The notes beneath the pieces are model-generated. The model ran no database searches. It was given only the letters and a program-made list of their open reading frames with translations, and was not told where the DNA came from. Source: Gammaproteobacteria bacterium (GTDB lineage Bacteria; Gemmatimonadota; Gemmatimonadetes; Longimicrobiales; Gaopeijiaceae). Taken from it: a stretch of 54,639 nt of DNA. Both the position numbers and the translations under genes were made by a program. The stretch spans positions 1 through 54,639 of the forward strand of contig VXNP01000148.1 in the NCBI GenBank assembly GCA_009840525.1, written 5' to 3'. Shown here piece after piece: positions 45,557-54,598 of this stretch (its first letter is position 1; each line of letters begins with the position of its first letter).

Positions 45557-47161
45557 ATGAAGGCCGGGGAATCCAACCGTATTTTCGACGCGGTCGTCAT
45601 CGGCGGTGGGCCGGCCGGGTCCGCCGTGAGCCGTCTGCTCGCGCGTTGGGGGCACTCGGTCGTCCTTCTCACGCGCCGGCCGACTGGCCATCCCGCACTT
45701 GCCGAGTCCGTTCCCCCCAGCGCGCGCAAGCTCTTCACCCTTCTGGGGATCGCGCCGGAGATCGACGACGCGGGTTTCTTCCCGGCCCGGGGCAATCTCG
45801 TCCGCTGGGGCGATGCCCCGCTCCGGCGAGCCGACTTCGCGCCCGGGAGCATCGGCCACCACGTAGTGCGCGACGTCTTCGACGCCCTGCTTCTCGATCT
45901 CGCTGAAGAAGCGGGCGCCGAGGTGCGGCGCGATGCCACGGTGCGGCGAGTGGTGGGGACGGAGGCCGGTCGCGAAGGGGAAGGGGAGCAACTGCAGCGA
46001 GTCGAGTATGAGGACTGGCATGGCGGCACGGGAGTCCTCCGGGCTCGCTTCGTCGTGGATTGCTCCGGCCGCACGGGAGTCATCGCGAACGCGGGCCTGC
46101 GCGTCCACGACCAGTCAAACGCCACCATCGCGCTGGCCGGGGTGTGGCGGGCGAACGCCGGCGCATCCCCGGCCGAGCCATACACCTTGGTGGAGAGCTA
46201 CCGCGACGGCTGGGCCTGGTCGATGCCGGTATCGGACGCGCGCCGCTACCTGACCATGATGATCGACCCCCGCAGGACCGAGCTGCTCAAGGGGCAGGGA
46301 CACCGCCGCCTCTACCTGGCGGAACTCGAGAAGACCCGGGAGGCCCGCCGTCTCGTGGCCGACGCTCGCCTTGAGAGCGACATCAGCGGGCACACCTCCT
46401 CCCAGTACACCGCCTCCCGCTTCGCCGAGGACGGGCTCCTGCTGGTCGGGGATGCGGGCAGCTTCATCGATCCGCTCGCCTCGGCAGGGGTCAAGAAGGC
46501 GCTCGCTTCCGCGTGGCTCGCGGCGGTGGTGGTCCACACCTGCATCTCGACGCCCGACATGCGCGACGTGGCGCTCGAGTTCTTCGACAACCGCGAACGA
46601 GCGACCTGGCTCGGCCACCGCCGCCACACGGCCCGGTACTACCGTGAGGCGGCCGCGGCGCACGGTCACGGCTTCTGGAGCGCGCGCGCGGCGGCCGCCG
46701 GGGACATCGAGGCGCCCGCGCGTCCAGACGCGGCGCAAGCCTCCGCCCTCGACCCCGCTGCGGAAGTACACGTCCCGGTCCCGACCGAGCCCGACATCGC
46801 CGCGCTGCGCAAAGACCCGGATGTCCTGCGCGCCTTCCGCGAACTGCGTGCCGCGCCCAGCATCCGCCTCCGCCCCGCGCCCGGCCTGCGCCATCCCCGG
46901 CTGCCCGCGGTACGCGGCCGCCGGATTGTTCTCGACGAGCACCTCGCCTCGCCCGCGCTTCCCGACGGCGTGCGCTTCCTGCGCGACGTCGACCTCCCGC
47001 CCCTCGTCGAAATGGCCGGCAGCTTCGAGCAGGTACCCGACCTCTACCAGGCCTACCTGGACCGCGTCGCCACCGTCTCGCTGCCGGATTTCCTGGGCGC
47101 GCTCTCCGTCCTCCTCGGCAAGGGGATGCTGACGAACGAACCCCAGGGAGGTCGCCGATGA
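45557..47161 (+). CDS. qhpG: FAD-dependent monooxygenase, QhpG-like (halogenase-fold)
   Basis: 534 residues. GGGPAG at 16-21 binds FAD; GDAGSFIDPLASAGVKKAL at 298-316 is the second FAD motif; WAWSMP at 219-224 matches the WxWxIP element of the flavin halogenase group. Where halogenases keep the catalytic Lys, this protein reads PARGNLVRWGD, without lysine, which favours hydroxylation. QhpG, of this fold, dihydroxylates the Trp of the amine dehydrogenase gamma subunit before quinone formation. The qhpADCB genes start 2.5 kb downstream on the same strand, which supports the call. The tail beyond residue 385 (about 150 residues) is longer than expected. ATGA overlap with the FGE-like gene. Confidence 0.72.
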   Translation: MKAGESNRIFDAVVIGGGPAGSAVSRLLARWGHSVVLLTRRPTGHPALAESVPPSARKLFTLLGIAPEIDDAGFFPARGNLVRWGDAPLRRADFAPGSIGHHVVRDVFDALLLDLAEEAGAEVRRDATVRRVVGTEAGREGEGEQLQRVEYEDWHGGTGVLRARFVVDCSGRTGVIANAGLRVHDQSNATIALAGVWRANAGASPAEPYTLVESYRDGWAWSMPVSDARRYLTMMIDPRRTELLKGQGHRRLYLAELEKTREARRLVADARLESDISGHTSSQYTASRFAEDGLLLVGDAGSFIDPLASAGVKKALASAWLAAVVVHTCISTPDMRDVALEFFDNRERATWLGHRRHTARYYREAAAAHGHGFWSARAAAAGDIEAPARPDAAQASALDPAAEVHVPVPTEPDIAALRKDPDVLRAFRELRAAPSIRLRPAPGLRHPRLPAVRGRRIVLDEHLASPALPDGVRFLRDVDLPPLVEMAGSFEQVPDLYQAYLDRVATVSLPDFLGALSVLLGKGMLTNEPQGGRR

Positions 47162-48057
47162 TGATGCCGGCGCGCTACAGGATGATGGTCGCCGGGGGAG
47201 CACTGGCGCTTCTGCTTCTACCTGGCTGCATGCGCCCGGTGAGTGCCCAGCAGCCTGGACCGGGTACTGTCTTCAGAGACTGCGAGGCTTGCCCGGAGAT
47301 GATGGTAGTGCCTCCGGGAAGCTTCATGATGGGATCGCCCCGAACCCCGCGAGGCATGTATGTCGACGAGGGGCCGCGCCACCGGGCGACGATCGGGTAT
47401 CCTCTGGCGGTGGGGGTATTCGAAGTGACCTTCGCCGAATGGGATGCCTGCGTGAGCGCCGGGGGCTGCCTGGGCTACCGGCCGGACGACCAGGGCTCGG
47501 GCCGCGGAAGGCGACCCGTCATCAACGTCTCCTGGGAGGACGCGCGGAGGTACGTCGCCTGGCTGTCGGAGCAGACAGGCGAAGCGTACCGGTTGCCGAG
47601 CGAAGCCGAATGGGAGTACGTGGCGCGTGCCGGGACGGAGACGGCGTGGTACTGGGGAGAGGACCCTGGGGAACAATGCCGTCACGCCAACGGATTCGAC
47701 CGCGAACTCGCCGAGAGACGCGGAGTGGAGGACGCCACGATCAGGGTCGTGCCCGTGTCCTGTTCCGACGGGTATGACGGGGTGGCCCCGGTGGGGTCGT
47801 TCGAGCCGAACGGCTTCGGACTCCATGACGTGTCGGGCAACGTCTGGGAGTGGACGGACGACTGCTGGAACGAAACCTATGCGGGCGCTCCGGCCGACGG
47901 CAGCGCCTGGAGCCGCGGATACTGCGTTCCCCGCGTGGTGCGCGGCGGCTCCTGGAACAACCCGCCCGGTCTCCTGCGCTCGGCGTTCCGTGACGGGATT
48001 CCGCGTGAAGACCGAGGGTTCAACGTCGGGTTCCGGGTTGCCCGGTCGATGCACTAA
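47158..48057 (+). CDS. FGE/sulfatase-modifying-factor-like lipoprotein
   Basis: 299 residues. Lipoprotein signal with lipobox LLLLPGC (Cys24). The formylglycine-generating-enzyme fold covers about 40-297: MMVVPPGSFMMGSP, VFEVTFAEWDACVSAGGC, INVSWEDARRYVAWLSEQTG, RLPSEAEWEYVARAG, FGLHDVSGNVWEWTDDCW, RVVRGGSWNNPP, NVGFRVARS. Several extra Cys are present (CEACPE, CVSAGGC, CRHAN, VSCSDG, DDCW, GYC); the copper-binding Cys pair of true FGE is not obvious, so it may be a structural relative. Its ATGA overlap with the QhpG-like gene implies coupled translation, a hint that it serves the same pathway in the periplasm. Confidence 0.85.
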   Translation: MMMPARYRMMVAGGALALLLLPGCMRPVSAQQPGPGTVFRDCEACPEMMVVPPGSFMMGSPRTPRGMYVDEGPRHRATIGYPLAVGVFEVTFAEWDACVSAGGCLGYRPDDQGSGRGRRPVINVSWEDARRYVAWLSEQTGEAYRLPSEAEWEYVARAGTETAWYWGEDPGEQCRHANGFDRELAERRGVEDATIRVVPVSCSDGYDGVAPVGSFEPNGFGLHDVSGNVWEWTDDCWNETYAGAPADGSAWSRGYCVPRVVRGGSWNNPPGLLRSAFRDGIPREDRGFNVGFRVARSMH

Positions 48058-48751: not shown

Positions 48752-49174
48752 TTATTCGGCCCCAACCAAGGCGTCGCGAGGGGTGATGACCGAGCCAGAC
48801 CGCGGAGGGTTCTCCAACAGCAGCCGGTCGCCCGTGATGAGTTGACAACCGGGCTGGCTGGCGAGCAGCGCCCAAAGATGGTTGTCGCCCGGTTCCGGGG
48901 CGGCTTCGCTCTTGCTTGGCTCGCGCCACACCGCGTTCGCTGCCAGGTCGGTCAGCAGGCTGTCGATCTCGTCTTCGGTTTGCTGATGAAACCGTGCCAC
49001 GCCGGATCGCCGCAGCACTCCCGAATACTCCGAAAGCAAGGCTCCGGACATCAGATAGAGCAGCCGGCCGTCGAGCATTGCGTCGAGAATCCGCGACGGA
49101 GGGCTGTGCGGGTCGGCACTCGTCATTCCGGACACGACGACATTGGTATCCACGACGAAGACCCCCCGGGTCAA
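48752..49174 (-). CDS. PIN-domain toxin (COG1569-type)
   Basis: 140 residues. PIN acids: Asp in VFVVDTNVVVSG, Glu in LLSEYSGVL, Asp in EPGDNHLWALLAS, and the closing 'QLITGDRLLLENPP'. This is the 'putative toxin component near PIN' branch, distinct from the VapC at 28.3 kb. TTG 49174 overlaps the antitoxin stop as TTGA. It would be an RNase held in check by the upstream antitoxin. Confidence 0.88.
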   Translation of the reverse strand: MTRGVFVVDTNVVVSGMTSADPHSPPSRILDAMLDGRLLYLMSGALLSEYSGVLRRSGVARFHQQTEDEIDSLLTDLAANAVWREPSKSEAAPEPGDNHLWALLASQPGCQLITGDRLLLENPPRSGSVITPRDALVGAE

Positions 49175-49416
49175 TCGTCCTTCCCGGCTCGGTATCGCCT
49201 GGTTTCGCGCACCGCCAATGCCATCGCCTCTTCATCGCTCAAGCCGGCACTCGAACGCGCTCGCGCGACGATATCACGTGCCGTCATGGAAGGAAGGATA
49301 CCCCTGAATTCAAGGCTCTCTTCGATGATCGCGCCCATGGAGCGTCCTTGTCGGGCCGCGGCCTCTCGCAAGGCCCGGTGTGTACGGTCCGTCAAGCTGA
49401 TTGTGAGGCGTGGCAT
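49171..49416 (-). CDS. Ribbon-helix-helix-type antitoxin
   Basis: 81 residues. MPRLTISLTDRTHRALREAAARQGRSMGAIIEESLEFR has the beta strand and two helices of a ribbon-helix-helix DNA-binding domain; the acidic/Arg tail (LSDEEAMALAVRETRRYRAGKDD) should wrap the toxin. The ATG at 49416 was chosen because it begins the ribbon strand; ATG 49455 would add 13 residues. TTGA overlap with the toxin. Confidence 0.85.
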   Translation of the reverse strand: MPRLTISLTDRTHRALREAAARQGRSMGAIIEESLEFRGILPSMTARDIVARARSSAGLSDEEAMALAVRETRRYRAGKDD

Positions 49417-49461
49417 GGCACGAAATCCCGGGTTTCGACGACGGTGCTGAGACATGAAAAC

Positions 49462-49503
49462 ACCATAGCACCAACACATCACCGATGCAACGTGCATGCA
49501 TCG
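49462..49503 (-). promoter_or_regulatory. Putative antitoxin promoter with inverted-repeat operator
   Basis: On the minus strand TTGCAT (49490-49485) and TATGGT (49467-49462) are 17 nt apart, a plausible -35/-10 pair for the antitoxin gene. CGATGCA (49483-49489) and TGCATCG (49497-49503) form 7-bp inverted arms overlapping the -35, as expected for autoregulation by a dimeric antitoxin. The qhpA start lies 125 nt away on the other strand. Confidence 0.4.
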
Positions 49504-49627
49504 ACCCGGGCTCGTGTGCTCTCCGCCCCGCCGGATCTCCCCGTTTGTCTCCCGTCCCCGCAGGCGGTATCATCCCTATGCCGCATACACCGGTAAACAA
49601 GAGTTTCTCCAACTCCCGGGTCCCCGC

Positions 49628-51424
49628 ATGGTTCACCGCCCTCGTTTGACCCGCGCGCGCCTCCTGGCCGGATTGCTCGCCACAGGCTCGTTCGTCGTCG
49701 CCTCCGGCGCCAGCGCCCAGAGCGACGAGGAAGGCTTCCCGATCGACCACGAGACCATCCGCGCCCGCTGCGCGGCGTGCCACCTCCCGGATTCCGAAGG
49801 GCGCATGTCGCGCATCTCCTTCGAGCGCAAGACGCCGGAGGGATGGCAGGGCTCGCTGCAGCGCATGATCTCGCTCAACGGCGTGACCCTCGCGCCCGAG
49901 GAAGCGCGCGAGATCGTGAAGTATCTCTCGGACCACCAGGGATTGGCGCCCGAGGAGCTGCGTCCCGGTCTCTTCGAGGTCGAGAAGCGGATGATCGACC
50001 ACCGCTATCTGGCGGATACCGACGTCGAGTTCACCTGCATCCAGTGCCACTCGATGGGGCGGGTGATCACGCAGCGGCGCACGCGTGAGGAGTGGGAGCT
50101 CCTGATGTCAACGCACCGCGGCTACTATCCGCTCGCGGACTTCCAGGCCTTTCTGCGCATGGGCCCCACGCCCGATCAGCCCGGTCCCGACGGGGAGCCG
50201 CCGGACACGCGCCAGCCCATGGAGCGCGCCGTCGATCACCTCTCCGAGGTCTTCCCTCTCCACACTCCCGAGTGGGCGGCGTGGTCGGCCACCATGCGCC
50301 CGTCCCGCCTGGAGGGCACATGGGTCATGTCGGGTCATCAGCCCGGACGCGGCGCGCTCTACGGCACGGTCACCATGGGGGACGGCGGCGAACAGGACGC
50401 GTTCGTCACCCGTGCCAGCTACACGTTCCCGGCCACCGGCGAGACCGTCACCCGGCGGGGCCGCGGGCTGGTGTACACCGGATACCAGTGGCGTGGGCGC
50501 TCCTTCGAGTCCGATGAAGCCGATGGGGCGATGCGCGAGGTGATGCTGGTGGAGCGCGGCATGAACGAGATCAGCGGCCGCTGGTTCCGGGGCGACTACG
50601 ACGAGATCGGCATGGACGTGCGCCTCACGCGCGTGGCCGGCTCCCCGGTCGTCGCGGGCGTGCATCCCCGCGCCCTCCAACTGGGTGGCGGCGAGCGCGA
50701 GGTGCGCATCTTCGGAGCCGGGTTCGCGGACGGCGTCGGGCCCGGAGATGTGGATCTGGGCCCCGGGCTGACCGTCAACAGGGTGGTCAGCGCCTCCTCC
50801 GACGAGATCACCCTCAACGTGACCCTGGCGCCCGATGCGGCTCCGGGGGGGCGCGACGTTTTCGTCGGTGGAGCGAGTCTGGCGCAGGCCGTGGTCGTCC
50901 ACGACGGCATCGACCGCATTCAGGTGCTGCCGCGCACCGGGATGGCCCGCGTGGGCGGCATCGTCTTCCCGAAGGGCTACCAGCAGTTCGAAGCGGTCGC
51001 CTTCGACGATGGGCCTGACGGGCGTCCAAGCTCCGACGACGATCTGGAGCTGGGGCCGGTCGAGGTCGACTGGAGCCTCGAGGAGTACGCGGCGACCTTC
51101 GACGACAACGACATCGAGTTCGTCGGCTCGATCGACCAGACCGGACTTTTCGTGCCCGCGGCCGACGGCCCCAACCCGGACCGCGACCGAAACCGCAACA
51201 ACGTCGGCGACGTGTGGGTGGTGGCCGCACTCGCACAGGACGACAACGGCGACCGTCCCCTGCGGGCGCGCGCCCACCTGGTCGTGACCGTCCCGCTCTA
51301 TCTCCTTTTCGATGCGGGAGCCAACGTGAGCACGGGAGCGAGCCCGGATCCGGCGGCAAGCTCGAACGGACGAGGAAGCCGAACCCCCGGACCGAATCCC
51401 GGAATGGGAAGGAGCCCGCAATGA
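49628..51424 (+). CDS. qhpA: Quinohemoprotein amine dehydrogenase alpha subunit (di-heme)
   Basis: 598 residues. Signal peptide (LTRARLLAGLLATGSFVVASGASAQ, cleaved near residue 30). Domain 1 is a di-heme cytochrome c with CAACH (48-52) and CIQCH (137-141). Domains 2-4 are beta-rich, including GTWVMSGHQPGRGALYGTVTM and the Ig-like 'VVAGVHPRALQLGGGEREVRIFGAGFADG', as in the known alpha subunit of about 500-550 residues. It takes electrons from the tryptophylquinone of the gamma subunit and passes them to periplasmic acceptors. The Gly/Ser/Pro-rich tail (about 570-598) is an addition. ATG 49628 directly precedes the signal. ATGA overlap with qhpD. The gene set A-D-C-B secures the name. Confidence 0.93.
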   Translation: MVHRPRLTRARLLAGLLATGSFVVASGASAQSDEEGFPIDHETIRARCAACHLPDSEGRMSRISFERKTPEGWQGSLQRMISLNGVTLAPEEAREIVKYLSDHQGLAPEELRPGLFEVEKRMIDHRYLADTDVEFTCIQCHSMGRVITQRRTREEWELLMSTHRGYYPLADFQAFLRMGPTPDQPGPDGEPPDTRQPMERAVDHLSEVFPLHTPEWAAWSATMRPSRLEGTWVMSGHQPGRGALYGTVTMGDGGEQDAFVTRASYTFPATGETVTRRGRGLVYTGYQWRGRSFESDEADGAMREVMLVERGMNEISGRWFRGDYDEIGMDVRLTRVAGSPVVAGVHPRALQLGGGEREVRIFGAGFADGVGPGDVDLGPGLTVNRVVSASSDEITLNVTLAPDAAPGGRDVFVGGASLAQAVVVHDGIDRIQVLPRTGMARVGGIVFPKGYQQFEAVAFDDGPDGRPSSDDDLELGPVEVDWSLEEYAATFDDNDIEFVGSIDQTGLFVPAADGPNPDRDRNRNNVGDVWVVAALAQDDNGDRPLRARAHLVVTVPLYLLFDAGANVSTGASPDPAASSNGRGSRTPGPNPGMGRSPQ

Positions 51425-52986
51425 GCAACGCAGGCATCACTTCGCCGGGCGGTTTGTCGGTGAGCGCCGCGACCGCGACACCGGTTGCTGCTGCAGCCAC
51501 CGAGGCTGCGAACGGGGCCCCGGCGCCCGCGCCGCTCCTCTCATCCGGCGCTGCGCCGGCAGCCTCCGGTCTCCTCACTCCGGGGGAGTTCCACGCCTTC
51601 CAGGCGGACGGCGCAACGTTCCTCTACCTGGTGCCGAGCGCGGCGATCTTCCGCATGGATGACGCGTCGCTCGCGGTGCTCCGGGCGCTCGAGACCGCCA
51701 ACCGCACGCCGGCCGAGCTGGTGCAGCGGCTGGGGGACCGTTTTCCCGCGGAAGAAGTCACCAACCGCATCGACGAACTGCTGGGATTGCGCGCCATCGG
51801 CCTCCTCGGCAAGCCTGCTCCGGCTCCTCCGGACATGCTGCCGCCCAAGGGCTTTCCGCTCACCACGATGGTCCTGAACGTCACCAGCAAGTGCAATCTG
51901 GCCTGCACCTACTGCTACGAGTACGGCGACGACCGCATCGTCGAGGCCGACTCCAAACCCCGCTACATGGACCTCGAGACCGCCCGGGAGAGCGTCGACT
52001 TCATGTTCGAGCAGGGCGGGTCGAACCGGCTGGTGCACCTGACCTTCTTCGGCGGTGAGACCCTCCTCAACTTCAAGCTGCTCAAGAGCACCACGGCCTA
52101 CGCGCGGCAGCGCGCCCGCGCGGTGGGGAAGGAGGTCGACTTCAGCCTCACCACCAACGCGACCCTGCTCAAGCCCGAGATCGTCGACTGGCTGGCGGAG
52201 AACCGAGTGGGCGTGACCGTGTCCATCGACGGCCCGCGCGAAGTCCAGGACGGCCTGCGCGTCTTCTCCAACGGCATGGGCAGCTACGACATCATCCTGC
52301 CCAAGATCAAGGATCTGCTTGCGCGCCACCGCACCCGCCCCATCGGCGCGCGCGTTACCCTGACCAGCCAGAACCTGGACGTCAAGCACATCTTCAGGCA
52401 CCTGACCGAGGAGATCGGATTCTGGGAGGTCGGCTTCGCGCCGGTGACCAGTTCGTCGTGCCGCGACTTCTCCATCTCGGACGCTGGCTACGACAAGATG
52501 CTCGGCCAGTTCGAGGAGCTCGCCCACGACTTCCTCGAGCACGCGTGCGCCGACCGCCATCACGGCTTCTCCAACGTGAAGGACACCCTGGAGGAGATCC
52601 ACAAGGGCGTCAGCAAGGCGTACCCGTGCGGCGCGGGCCTCGGGCTCATGGGGGTGGCGACCGACGGCGACGTGGCGCTCTGCCATCGCTTCGCCGGGTC
52701 CGACGAGCACAAGATCGGGTCGGTGTCGGAGGGGGTCGACGTCGACGTGCAGTACGACTACCTGAAGAAGCACCACATCAACAGCAAGACCGACTGCCGC
52801 ACCTGCTGGGCCCGTCCCATCTGCGCCGGCGGATGCTATCACGAGGCCCATACCCGGTACGGCACCACTGCAACCCCGAACCTCCACTTCTGCGAGTGGG
52901 TTCGGAGCTGGACCGACACCTGTCTTCGCGTCTACGGAGCCATCTCGGAGCGCAACCCCGCCTTCCTGGCGCGGTTCGACGCCTGA
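51421..52986 (+). CDS. qhpD: Radical SAM/SPASM thioether-forming enzyme QhpD
   Basis: 521 residues. An Ala-rich N-terminus (1-50), a PqqD/RRE-like winged region (about 53-130, FHAFQADGATFLYLVPSAAIFRMD), then a radical SAM core with the cluster motif CNLACTYC (Cys158, 162, 165) and GGETLL at 211-216. The SPASM end has Cys403, 421, 459, 462, 468, 472, 491 and 501 for two auxiliary clusters. QhpD introduces the three intra-peptide Cys-to-Asp/Glu thioether bonds in QhpC before export. It sits between qhpA and qhpC exactly as in Paracoccus. Cytosolic. Start ATG in the qhpA stop (ATGA). Confidence 0.95.
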   Translation: MSNAGITSPGGLSVSAATATPVAAAATEAANGAPAPAPLLSSGAAPAASGLLTPGEFHAFQADGATFLYLVPSAAIFRMDDASLAVLRALETANRTPAELVQRLGDRFPAEEVTNRIDELLGLRAIGLLGKPAPAPPDMLPPKGFPLTTMVLNVTSKCNLACTYCYEYGDDRIVEADSKPRYMDLETARESVDFMFEQGGSNRLVHLTFFGGETLLNFKLLKSTTAYARQRARAVGKEVDFSLTTNATLLKPEIVDWLAENRVGVTVSIDGPREVQDGLRVFSNGMGSYDIILPKIKDLLARHRTRPIGARVTLTSQNLDVKHIFRHLTEEIGFWEVGFAPVTSSSCRDFSISDAGYDKMLGQFEELAHDFLEHACADRHHGFSNVKDTLEEIHKGVSKAYPCGAGLGLMGVATDGDVALCHRFAGSDEHKIGSVSEGVDVDVQYDYLKKHHINSKTDCRTCWARPICAGGCYHEAHTRYGTTATPNLHFCEWVRSWTDTCLRVYGAISERNPAFLARFDA

Positions 52987-53026
52987 GCCGGATCCACCGC
53001 GACCGAGTCAACGAGGAGAGAGACCC

Positions 53027-53449
53027 TTGGCACTGAAACCGATCAACCGCAAAGCGGACCGGATGGTGACCTACCTGGCGAACCAGGGCGACGTGCCCCC
53101 GGCCGAGCAGATGGCGGGTCCCGTGGGGCCGGCCGCGGGCGCGGTCGAGGGCGGCGCCGACGAGAACGCCGAGGATGTCGTCGCGCTCGGGGGACGGCTT
53201 CCGGAGGTGCCGGAGATACCGCACATCCCGCTGGGGTGCTCGCTGGTCTTCGCGCCGGGCTGGGAGGTCGACGAGGCGGGCGGCACCGCGGGACTCTGCC
53301 AGCCGGTGGAGCGCGACCTCTTCGACTGCCACCTGGCCTGCTTCTGGCCCGCCCACGTCCCGGATCAGTTGAACCACAGCCCGGACTGGACCGGCAAGTG
53401 CGCGGCCGCTCAGAACGACTGGCGCAAGCTGGAGATGATCTTCCCGTAG
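53027..53449 (+). CDS. qhpC: Quinohemoprotein amine dehydrogenase gamma subunit precursor
   Basis: 140 residues. The C-terminal part carries the whole catalytic core: Cys71, Glu80, Cys91, Asp97, Cys101, Cys105, Trp107, Asp113. Subtracting 64 gives Cys7-Glu16, Cys27-Asp33 and Cys41-Asp49 (the three thioether pairs) and Cys37-Trp43 (the cysteine tryptophylquinone), matching the known mature numbering; Asp33 is also the catalytic base. An extra Cys125 (mature 61) is present. The leader before the core, MALKPINRKADRMVTYL and on to about residue 64, is not a Sec signal and is far longer than the 28 residues known from Paracoccus. TTG start, with GAGGAGAG 7 nt upstream. Confidence 0.95.
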   Translation: MALKPINRKADRMVTYLANQGDVPPAEQMAGPVGPAAGAVEGGADENAEDVVALGGRLPEVPEIPHIPLGCSLVFAPGWEVDEAGGTAGLCQPVERDLFDCHLACFWPAHVPDQLNHSPDWTGKCAAAQNDWRKLEMIFP

Positions 53450-53478: not shown

Positions 53479-53512
53479 TGACAAAATGGCAGACATGTCT
53501 GACAAAATGTCA
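53479..53512 (+). promoter_or_regulatory. Two TGACAAAATG boxes 21 bp apart at the qhpB start
   Basis: TGACAAAATG occurs at 53479-53488 and 53500-53509. The second extends to TGACAAAATGTCA, an inverted repeat. Each ATG in the boxes is in frame with qhpB, so the boxes overlap three possible start codons (53486, 53495, 53507). Compare the boxes at 9691 and 32782. Confidence 0.4.
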
Positions 53513-54598
53513 TACCTGGCGGTGCTGATCGCCCTCCTCCCCGCGGCCCTGGCGGCGCAGGAGGTGCGCTCGGGCGGCAACGGCACCATCTACATGGGGG
53601 CCTACAACGAGGCCGTCTACGTCATCGACGAGGCGACCCTCGAGGTCACGGAGCGCATCCCCGTCACCACCGGCATCCCCAACCTCATGCAGCTCTCCCC
53701 GGACAACCGGATGCTCTATGTGCGCGACGCCGCCATGGAGCACATCGAGGTGGTCGATCTGGCCGAGGGGCGCTCGGTCGACTCCTTCACCCTGAGCGAG
53801 GGCAACACGAAGGTGCGCATCCGCTCGATGGTGGTGGAGCCGGGCGGCGAGTACATCCTGCTCGGCGCGCGCAGCTACACCAAGCTGCTCGACCGCTTCG
53901 AGATCGGCGAATTCTCGATCCTGCGCGTCGACCTCGATTCGCACGAGGTAACCGACACCGTGCCGACCGAGGTGGGCGAGCAGCGCCAGGGCGCCAACCT
54001 CATGTTCTCGCCGGACGGCGACCTCCTCTACTTCTTCGGCCGCGACATCATCGCCGTGGAGACCGAGAACTTCACCGAGGTCGACCGCTGGGAGCTGTCG
54101 CAGCCGCTGGAGGAAGGGCTCGGGCGCATGAACATGAGCTTCCAGCGCAGTCCCTACGACGACGAGGGCATCTTCACGAACCTCTTCCGGATGACCGATC
54201 CGGTGCAGGGCCGTCAGATGATGGGCATCGCGCGCGTGGACCTCGCGGAGCAGGATGTCGACTTCTACACCCTCGGCCCCAGCGAGCGGGTGAGCTTCAC
54301 GCTGGCGCCGGGCGGACGCAAGGGGTACGGGCTCCGCTCGGAGATCGGCTTCTATGAGTTCTGGACCTTCGATCTGGAGGGTCGGCGGGTCGAGAGCCGG
54401 GTCGAGTTCCCCGGGCGTCCCCGCATGTCGCTGGTGCCGAGCTCCAACGGCGAGCTGCTCTACATCTACAACGCCGGCAACACCATCGACGTCTACGACG
54501 CCGACACCCACGAGCTGCTGCGCACGGTGTGGCTCGACGCCGACATGACGCGCTTCCTGCTGGTGCCCGGGGACGCGGCCACCAACGGCGGTTCGTAG
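53486..54598 (+). CDS. qhpB: Quinohemoprotein amine dehydrogenase beta subunit (YVTN propeller)
   Basis: 370 residues. A short signal peptide (LAVLIALLPAALAAQ) is followed by a seven-bladed YVTN-type propeller: MGAYNEAVYVIDEATLEVTE, LMQLSPDNRMLYVRDAAMEHIEVVDL, LMFSPDGDLLYFFGRDIIAVE, LYIYNAGNTIDVYDADTHELL. In the known enzyme this subunit, together with alpha, encloses the small gamma subunit. It follows qhpC by 36 nt, as in the A-D-C-B order. The start is uncertain: ATG 53486, 53495 and 53507 are in frame and none has a clear Shine-Dalgarno. Confidence 0.92.
   Translation: MADMSDKMSYLAVLIALLPAALAAQEVRSGGNGTIYMGAYNEAVYVIDEATLEVTERIPVTTGIPNLMQLSPDNRMLYVRDAAMEHIEVVDLAEGRSVDSFTLSEGNTKVRIRSMVVEPGGEYILLGARSYTKLLDRFEIGEFSILRVDLDSHEVTDTVPTEVGEQRQGANLMFSPDGDLLYFFGRDIIAVETENFTEVDRWELSQPLEEGLGRMNMSFQRSPYDDEGIFTNLFRMTDPVQGRQMMGIARVDLAEQDVDFYTLGPSERVSFTLAPGGRKGYGLRSEIGFYEFWTFDLEGRRVESRVEFPGRPRMSLVPSSNGELLYIYNAGNTIDVYDADTHELLRTVWLDADMTRFLLVPGDAATNGGS

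Follow-up and report, generated by a model that had tools for sequence, protein, structure and literature searches.

The qhpC gene of the window, by which we mean the whole 54,639-nucleotide stretch of DNA analyzed here, raises two questions: what the long leader of its product does, and what to make of an additional cysteine that lies outside the known cross-links. The gene occupies positions 53027 to 53449 of the plus strand and encodes, from a TTG start, a QHNDH gamma-subunit precursor of 140 amino acids; the gamma subunit is the small, cross-linked component of this bacterial amine dehydrogenase, and its precursor is made by the ribosome. The predicted protein exceeds the curated cut-offs of two family models, PF08992 (112 bits against a cut-off of 25, E = 1e-32, residues 69 to 140) and NF037958 QH_gamma (118 bits against 50, residues 57 to 140), and aligns without gaps to the solved relatives 1jju_C and 1jmx_G. 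Together with the reading frame and its length, these matches bear out the original prediction that this stretch encodes a QhpC precursor. The genome carries a single qhpC copy, and QhpC is 93 to 99% identical in nine of the ten other genomes of the genus that were searched. Within its family the window's QhpC is ordinary, and its branch has features unlike those of the two model enzymes.

The cross-linked core spans C71 to P140 (53237 to 53446, plus strand), as delimited by the 1jju_C/1jmx_G alignment, PF08992 and a cross-phylum alignment. The published gamma-subunit cross-links comprise thioethers between Cys7 and Glu16, Cys27 and Asp33, and Cys41 and Asp49 and the CTQ formed by Cys37 and Trp43 (PMC7876137, PMC8172795). 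Read from the sequence, three Cys-Asp/Glu pairs (C71/E80, C91/D97 and C105/D113) and the Cys-Trp pair of CTQ (C101/W107) stand at the canonical spacing, each at its published mature position plus 64. All eight residues are invariant in an alignment of 25 sequences from several phyla, and the constant offset of 64 claimed earlier is confirmed by this invariance and by the gap-free alignment; the figure is a distance to the canonical alignment position and not itself a demonstrated leader length.

The surrounding genes, all on the plus strand, are those expected of a qhp locus. A qhpG-like flavin monooxygenase gene lies at 45557 to 47161 (NF049967, 238.1 bits, cut-off 240), qhpA for the diheme alpha subunit at 49628 to 51424 (start picked by inspecting the frame 49496 to 51424), qhpD for the radical SAM, thioether-forming enzyme at 51421 to 52986 (TIGR03906, 561 bits), and qhpB for the beta-propeller subunit at 53486 to 54598 (57.6 bits, cut-off 223). 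Because QhpB and QhpG both score below their NCBIfam cut-offs, they were assigned by similarity and position. The window ends just past qhpB; in the relative L033, an ABC transporter and a subtilase (QhpF and QhpE) come next downstream, and on another contig of the window's genome (C131) the terminal part of an ABC transporter occurs together with a homologue of QhpE (E = 1e-13). A single genome thus has the genes of both the alpha and the beta subunit as well as those for QhpD, QhpG, QhpE and QhpF, with the reservation already given for QhpB and QhpG.

Several other features of the region were recorded. Positions 47158 to 48057 encode an FGE/SUMF-domain protein that overlaps the end of the qhpG-like gene and has PvdO as its best NCBIfam match (225, cut-off 500); we rejected this gene as a conserved qhp component, since it is patchily distributed, being present here and in few relatives within the genus. 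A small minus-strand gene pair at 48752 to 49497, which by reading only resembles a PIN-type toxin with its antitoxin, sits between the FGE-like gene and qhpA. At its N terminus (51421 to 51590), QhpD is extended by about 55 residues, rich in Ala and Pro, ahead of the family-model start. The qhp genes of L032, L033, L034 and L038 are nearly identical to those of this Gemmatimonadota window, and their public MAG titles say Gammaproteobacteria or BD2-11 clade.

The leader begins with a conserved N-terminal motif, block 1 (M1 to R12, MALKPINRKADR; 53027 to 53062, plus strand), defined from cross-phylum alignments. A motif of this type, (K/D)HLxxINxKAxR, is present in QhpC of Gemmatimonadota, Acidobacteriota, Planctomycetota and Paracoccus/Pseudomonas, and the form M-(K/D)-H-L-x-x-(I/V/A)-N-x-K-A recurs in every QhpC leader examined except that of the divergent G345 protein. 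N7, K9 and A10 are invariant among 50 QhpC sequences from Gemmatimonadota, Acidobacteriota and Planctomycetota; among 25 from four phyla, a set that includes Paracoccus, Pseudomonas, Leisingera and Cupriavidus, N7 and K9 are invariant and M1 and A10 nearly so. A low-confidence AlphaFold2 model predicts a helix at residues 8 to 19, and AlphaFold2 applied to the 50 QhpC sequences gave no usable fold (mean pLDDT of 41.9).

Block 1 also bears on where translation begins. The annotated start is a TTG and in-frame ATG codons follow it, so that initiation at M13 or M29 would yield a short leader, and a start near Met29 had been named in advance as the observation that would overturn a long one. Such a start, however, would discard a block conserved in all phyla, in which the six relatives compared show no amino-acid change (M1 to R12), and would ignore the Shine-Dalgarno-like GAGGAGAGAG ahead of the TTG (53013 to 53022, plus strand), which is retained with minor changes in relatives within the genus. 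Because the motif is conserved across phyla and GAGGAGAGAG stands just before the TTG, we accept 53027 as the real start, and reject initiation downstream at M13 or M29, which carries almost no weight.

Is the leader, then, unusually long? From the start to the canonical position, Gemmatimonadota QhpC span 31 to 68 residues (median of 50), Acidobacteriota 33 to 60, Planctomycetota 29 to 58, and the classic proteobacterial set 26 to 28. At 64, the window's leader falls toward the upper end of the Gemmatimonadota range and within it, and such a length is not unusual, contrary to what had been proposed. The leader does start basic and become rich in Gly, Ala, Pro and Glu in its second half, as described earlier, and the alignment of leaders across phyla that had been suggested as a check resolves it into two conserved blocks separated by a variable spacer. 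This low-complexity spacer (residues 13 to 48; 53063 to 53170, plus strand), delimited from leader comparisons and the QhpD tree, accounts for most of the variation in leader length. It measures 36 to 39 residues in the window and 9 to 49 across Gemmatimonadota, is rich in Ala, Gly, Glu and Pro, and shifts in length repeatedly across the QhpD tree.

The original prediction held that QhpD, the flavin enzyme and the exporter may each recognize a separate part of the longer leader, and long leaders do recur in Gemmatimonadota (31 to 68 residues to the canonical position). The extra length nevertheless lies in an indel-prone, low-complexity segment under relaxed amino-acid constraint. Compared with L031, the window shows 9 nonsynonymous and 5 synonymous codon changes together with a 2-codon indel in the spacer, while the blocks and core have 0 nonsynonymous and 15 synonymous changes (Fisher p = 2e-4); the same contrast with L038 gives p = 0.02, the two pairs being related and not independent. 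Moreover, the QhpC of L067 (L067:7938-8261) has lost most of the spacer, about 23 codons relative to L057 and L058, in what is a natural deletion, although its QhpD and theirs share 98.5% identity across 466 residues, the QhpC cores do not differ in protein sequence and L067 is placed beside L057/L058 on the QhpD tree. Spacer length showed no coupling to the QhpD N-terminal extension among these three loci (QhpD start-to-cluster distance of 130 in all; spacers of 33, 34 and 10 residues for L057, L058 and L067). We therefore regard separate recognition parts in the spacer as improbable and the proposal as unsupported; in its simplest reading, the spacer looks like a flexible tether. The constrained portions of the leader are the two short blocks, the rest is unconstrained, and the L067 deletion offers a ready-made natural test.

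Block 2 (E49-D-V-V-A-L54; 53171 to 53188, plus strand) contains the predicted QhpE cleavage site, A53|L54. QhpC is known to carry a 28-residue leader that is taken off by QhpE (PMC7876137), and in Paracoccus QhpC (L107 to L109) residue 28 is the alanine of EVVA|MN(S/A)LVGC, six residues ahead of the first cross-linked Cys. In the cross-phylum alignment, D50-V-V-A-L54 of the window lines up with this EVVA28|M29. Past block 1 and ahead of the core, the pattern [DE]V[VIEAR][AG][LM] is present in all Gemmatimonadota (52/52), Acidobacteriota (11/11) and classic proteobacterial (8/8) sequences and in Novosphingobium, and in only 1 of 32 from Planctomycetota, most of which carry a looser xA(R/H)AL. 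The window's leader sequence thus holds both a conserved N-terminal motif and a QhpE-type cleavage motif. Because the cleavage site of the 28-residue Paracoccus leader aligns at window residues 50 to 54, cleavage probably falls at A53|L54, giving a leader of 53 residues and not 64; of the earlier comparison of about 64 residues with 28, the offset of 64 is correct and the leader length probably is not. The mature gamma subunit should then begin at about L54, with a predicted N-terminal extension (L54 to G70 by leader comparison; 53186 to 53236, plus strand) that makes it about 11 residues longer at this end than the Paracoccus protein, the first cross-linked Cys (Cys71) standing at mature position 18 versus 7, after 17 residues versus 6.

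The window's relatives likewise have additional residues that separate VVA from the first Cys, and the QhpE cut might therefore fall at another place. Cleavage at the canonical position, I64|P65, would give a 64-residue leader and a mature gamma subunit of Paracoccus length, and would suit both the gap-free core alignment and the good conservation of residues 65 to 70 (PHIPLG) in Gemmatimonadota. We consider it unlikely: the Paracoccus EVVA|M motif aligns at 50 to 54, not at 64, and the length of residues 55 to 64 differs among relatives.

We turn to the additional cysteine, Cys125 (mature position 61; 53399 to 53401, plus strand), which had been noted as lying outside the known bonds. It is indeed present, and it is invariant beyond the window: among distinct cores, Cys61 occurs in 71 of 71 that fall outside the classic proteobacterial clade and in 0 of 8 within it, where the residue is Ala; this classic group was drawn from plasmids, not from Pseudomonadota chromosomes. 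Two acidic positions follow the same distribution. Glu136 (mature 72; 53432 to 53434, plus strand) is acidic in every Cys61 core and Gly or Gln in the others, and Asp100 (mature 36; 53324 to 53326, plus strand) is Asp in every Cys61 core and Gly or Ala in the others, so that Asp/Glu72 and Asp36 accompany Cys61 in 71/71 cores and occur in none of the 8 classic ones. Asp131 (mature 67; 53417 to 53419, plus strand), six residues past Cys125, is invariant in both groups. Because the classic clade sits on one side of a single well-supported branch of the QhpD tree (100/99), the pattern at 61, 72 and 36 counts as one event and not as independent covariation; nine more core columns also distinguish the groups, bringing the total to 12. 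As judged from sequence, the Cys125-type gamma subunit is common to Gemmatimonadota, Acidobacteriota, Planctomycetota and one Novosphingobium.

A disulfide partner for Cys125 was sought in the window's QhpA and QhpB: QhpB has no Cys, QhpA has only the four heme Cys of its CxxCH motifs, and one further Cys in the qhpA frame lies upstream of the likely start. Since neither subunit has a free Cys, there is no evident disulfide partner within the heterotrimer in this genome. Of the remaining readings, a free thiol appears the most likely and a fourth thioether the second. We lean toward the view that Cys125 is conserved as a free thiol or for packing and forms no cross-link: Cys61 takes the place of Ala61, another small residue, and it changed once on the tree, in company with the nine columns that separate the groups besides 61, 36 and 72. 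This reading fits less comfortably with a periplasmic protein keeping the Cys in every one of 71 distinct cores, and with the identical distribution of the acids at 72 and 36. A fourth thioether made by QhpD outside the classic clade, from Cys125 to Glu/Asp136 or to Asp131, would give four such cross-links and not three. In its favor, acidic 72 occurs only with Cys61, the order of Cys and then acid is that of the three known bonds, neither QhpA nor QhpB of the window offers a free Cys for a disulfide, and the outlier G345 has Cys at both 61 and 72, as if a disulfide had replaced the thioether. In the known bonds the Cys lies 6 to 9 residues before the acid, and Cys125 lies 6 before Asp131 and 11 before Glu136. 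We hold the fourth thioether to be a tentative, minority reading; if Cys125 were cross-linked, QhpD would make one bond more than is known. We found no account of the extra Cys in the open-access papers searched, a scope outside which the primary QhpD (2015) and QhpE (2012) papers fall, and this Cys of the sampled nonclassic branches could not have come to light from the two model enzymes, both of them proteobacterial. Of all the details of this gene, it is the one that deserves experiment, and it is more interesting than the leader.

Together, these observations make it quite probable that the window encodes an ordinary QhpC with a two-part leader, in which conserved blocks flank a tether-like spacer, with cleavage near A53|L54 and a Cys125-type gamma subunit. 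Residues 75 to 127 of QhpD give a weak PqqD-like (RRE) match (PF05402, E = 7.8e-4), and the leader is reported to be required for QhpD binding (PMC7876137); on these grounds QhpD is the likely reader of block 1. By analogy with the known system, block 1 would dock on the RRE-like domain at the N terminus of QhpD, and QhpD would form the three Cys-Asp/Glu thioethers; QhpG would dihydroxylate Trp107 with the leader held by QhpD; QhpE would cleave after VVA53; and QhpF would export the product. The spacer would act as a tether only.

Relatives of this system differ from it in several respects. Other Gemmatimonadota and Acidobacteriota QhpC have both leader blocks, Cys61, Asp/Glu72 and Asp36 and differ in spacer length and composition, in the length from block 2 to the core and in small core details. 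Planctomycetota QhpC share block 1, Cys61, Asp72 and the core, but have a shorter leader from block 1 to the core, the looser block 2 and sometimes an extension ahead of block 1. A Novosphingobium plasmid (L112:7872-8216) encodes a Cys61-type QhpC; the QhpD from this plasmid clusters with a sequence from Acidobacteriota (100/99), a placement suggestive of interphylum transfer. A partial match in G226 (L143:6828-7085), in which a QhpC core fragment is joined to unrelated upstream sequence and followed by qhpB, was set aside as a probable misassembly. The divergent Planctomycetota locus G345 (L129/L142) keeps QhpA-like, QhpC-like and QhpD-like genes together; its QhpC-like protein (L142:7179-7736) has a long leader with DDVAM and seven Cys, including the equivalents of 61 and 72 and an extra one near 19, and its QhpD-like protein scores 393 bits, below the family cut-off of 453. 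The paired Cys suggest that positions 61 and 72 may lie close together. PapB and the ranthipeptide maturases are QhpD homologues that form Cys-Asp thioethers in a small peptide substrate (PMC8172795); the window's QhpD scores 286 bits against the PapB model (cut-off 340). A further point of reference is the QhpC of Paracoccus denitrificans and Pseudomonas putida (1jju_C, 1jmx_G; PMC7876137), which shares with the window the gap-free core, the eight cross-link residues, a KHLxPxNxKA N-terminal motif, the VVA cleavage block and the operon partners. Unlike the window's protein, it has a 28-residue leader with a 13-residue spacer, lacks Cys61, carries Gly/Gln at 72 and Gly/Ala at 36, and has Trp at position 42, where the window has Phe and its relatives Phe or Tyr.
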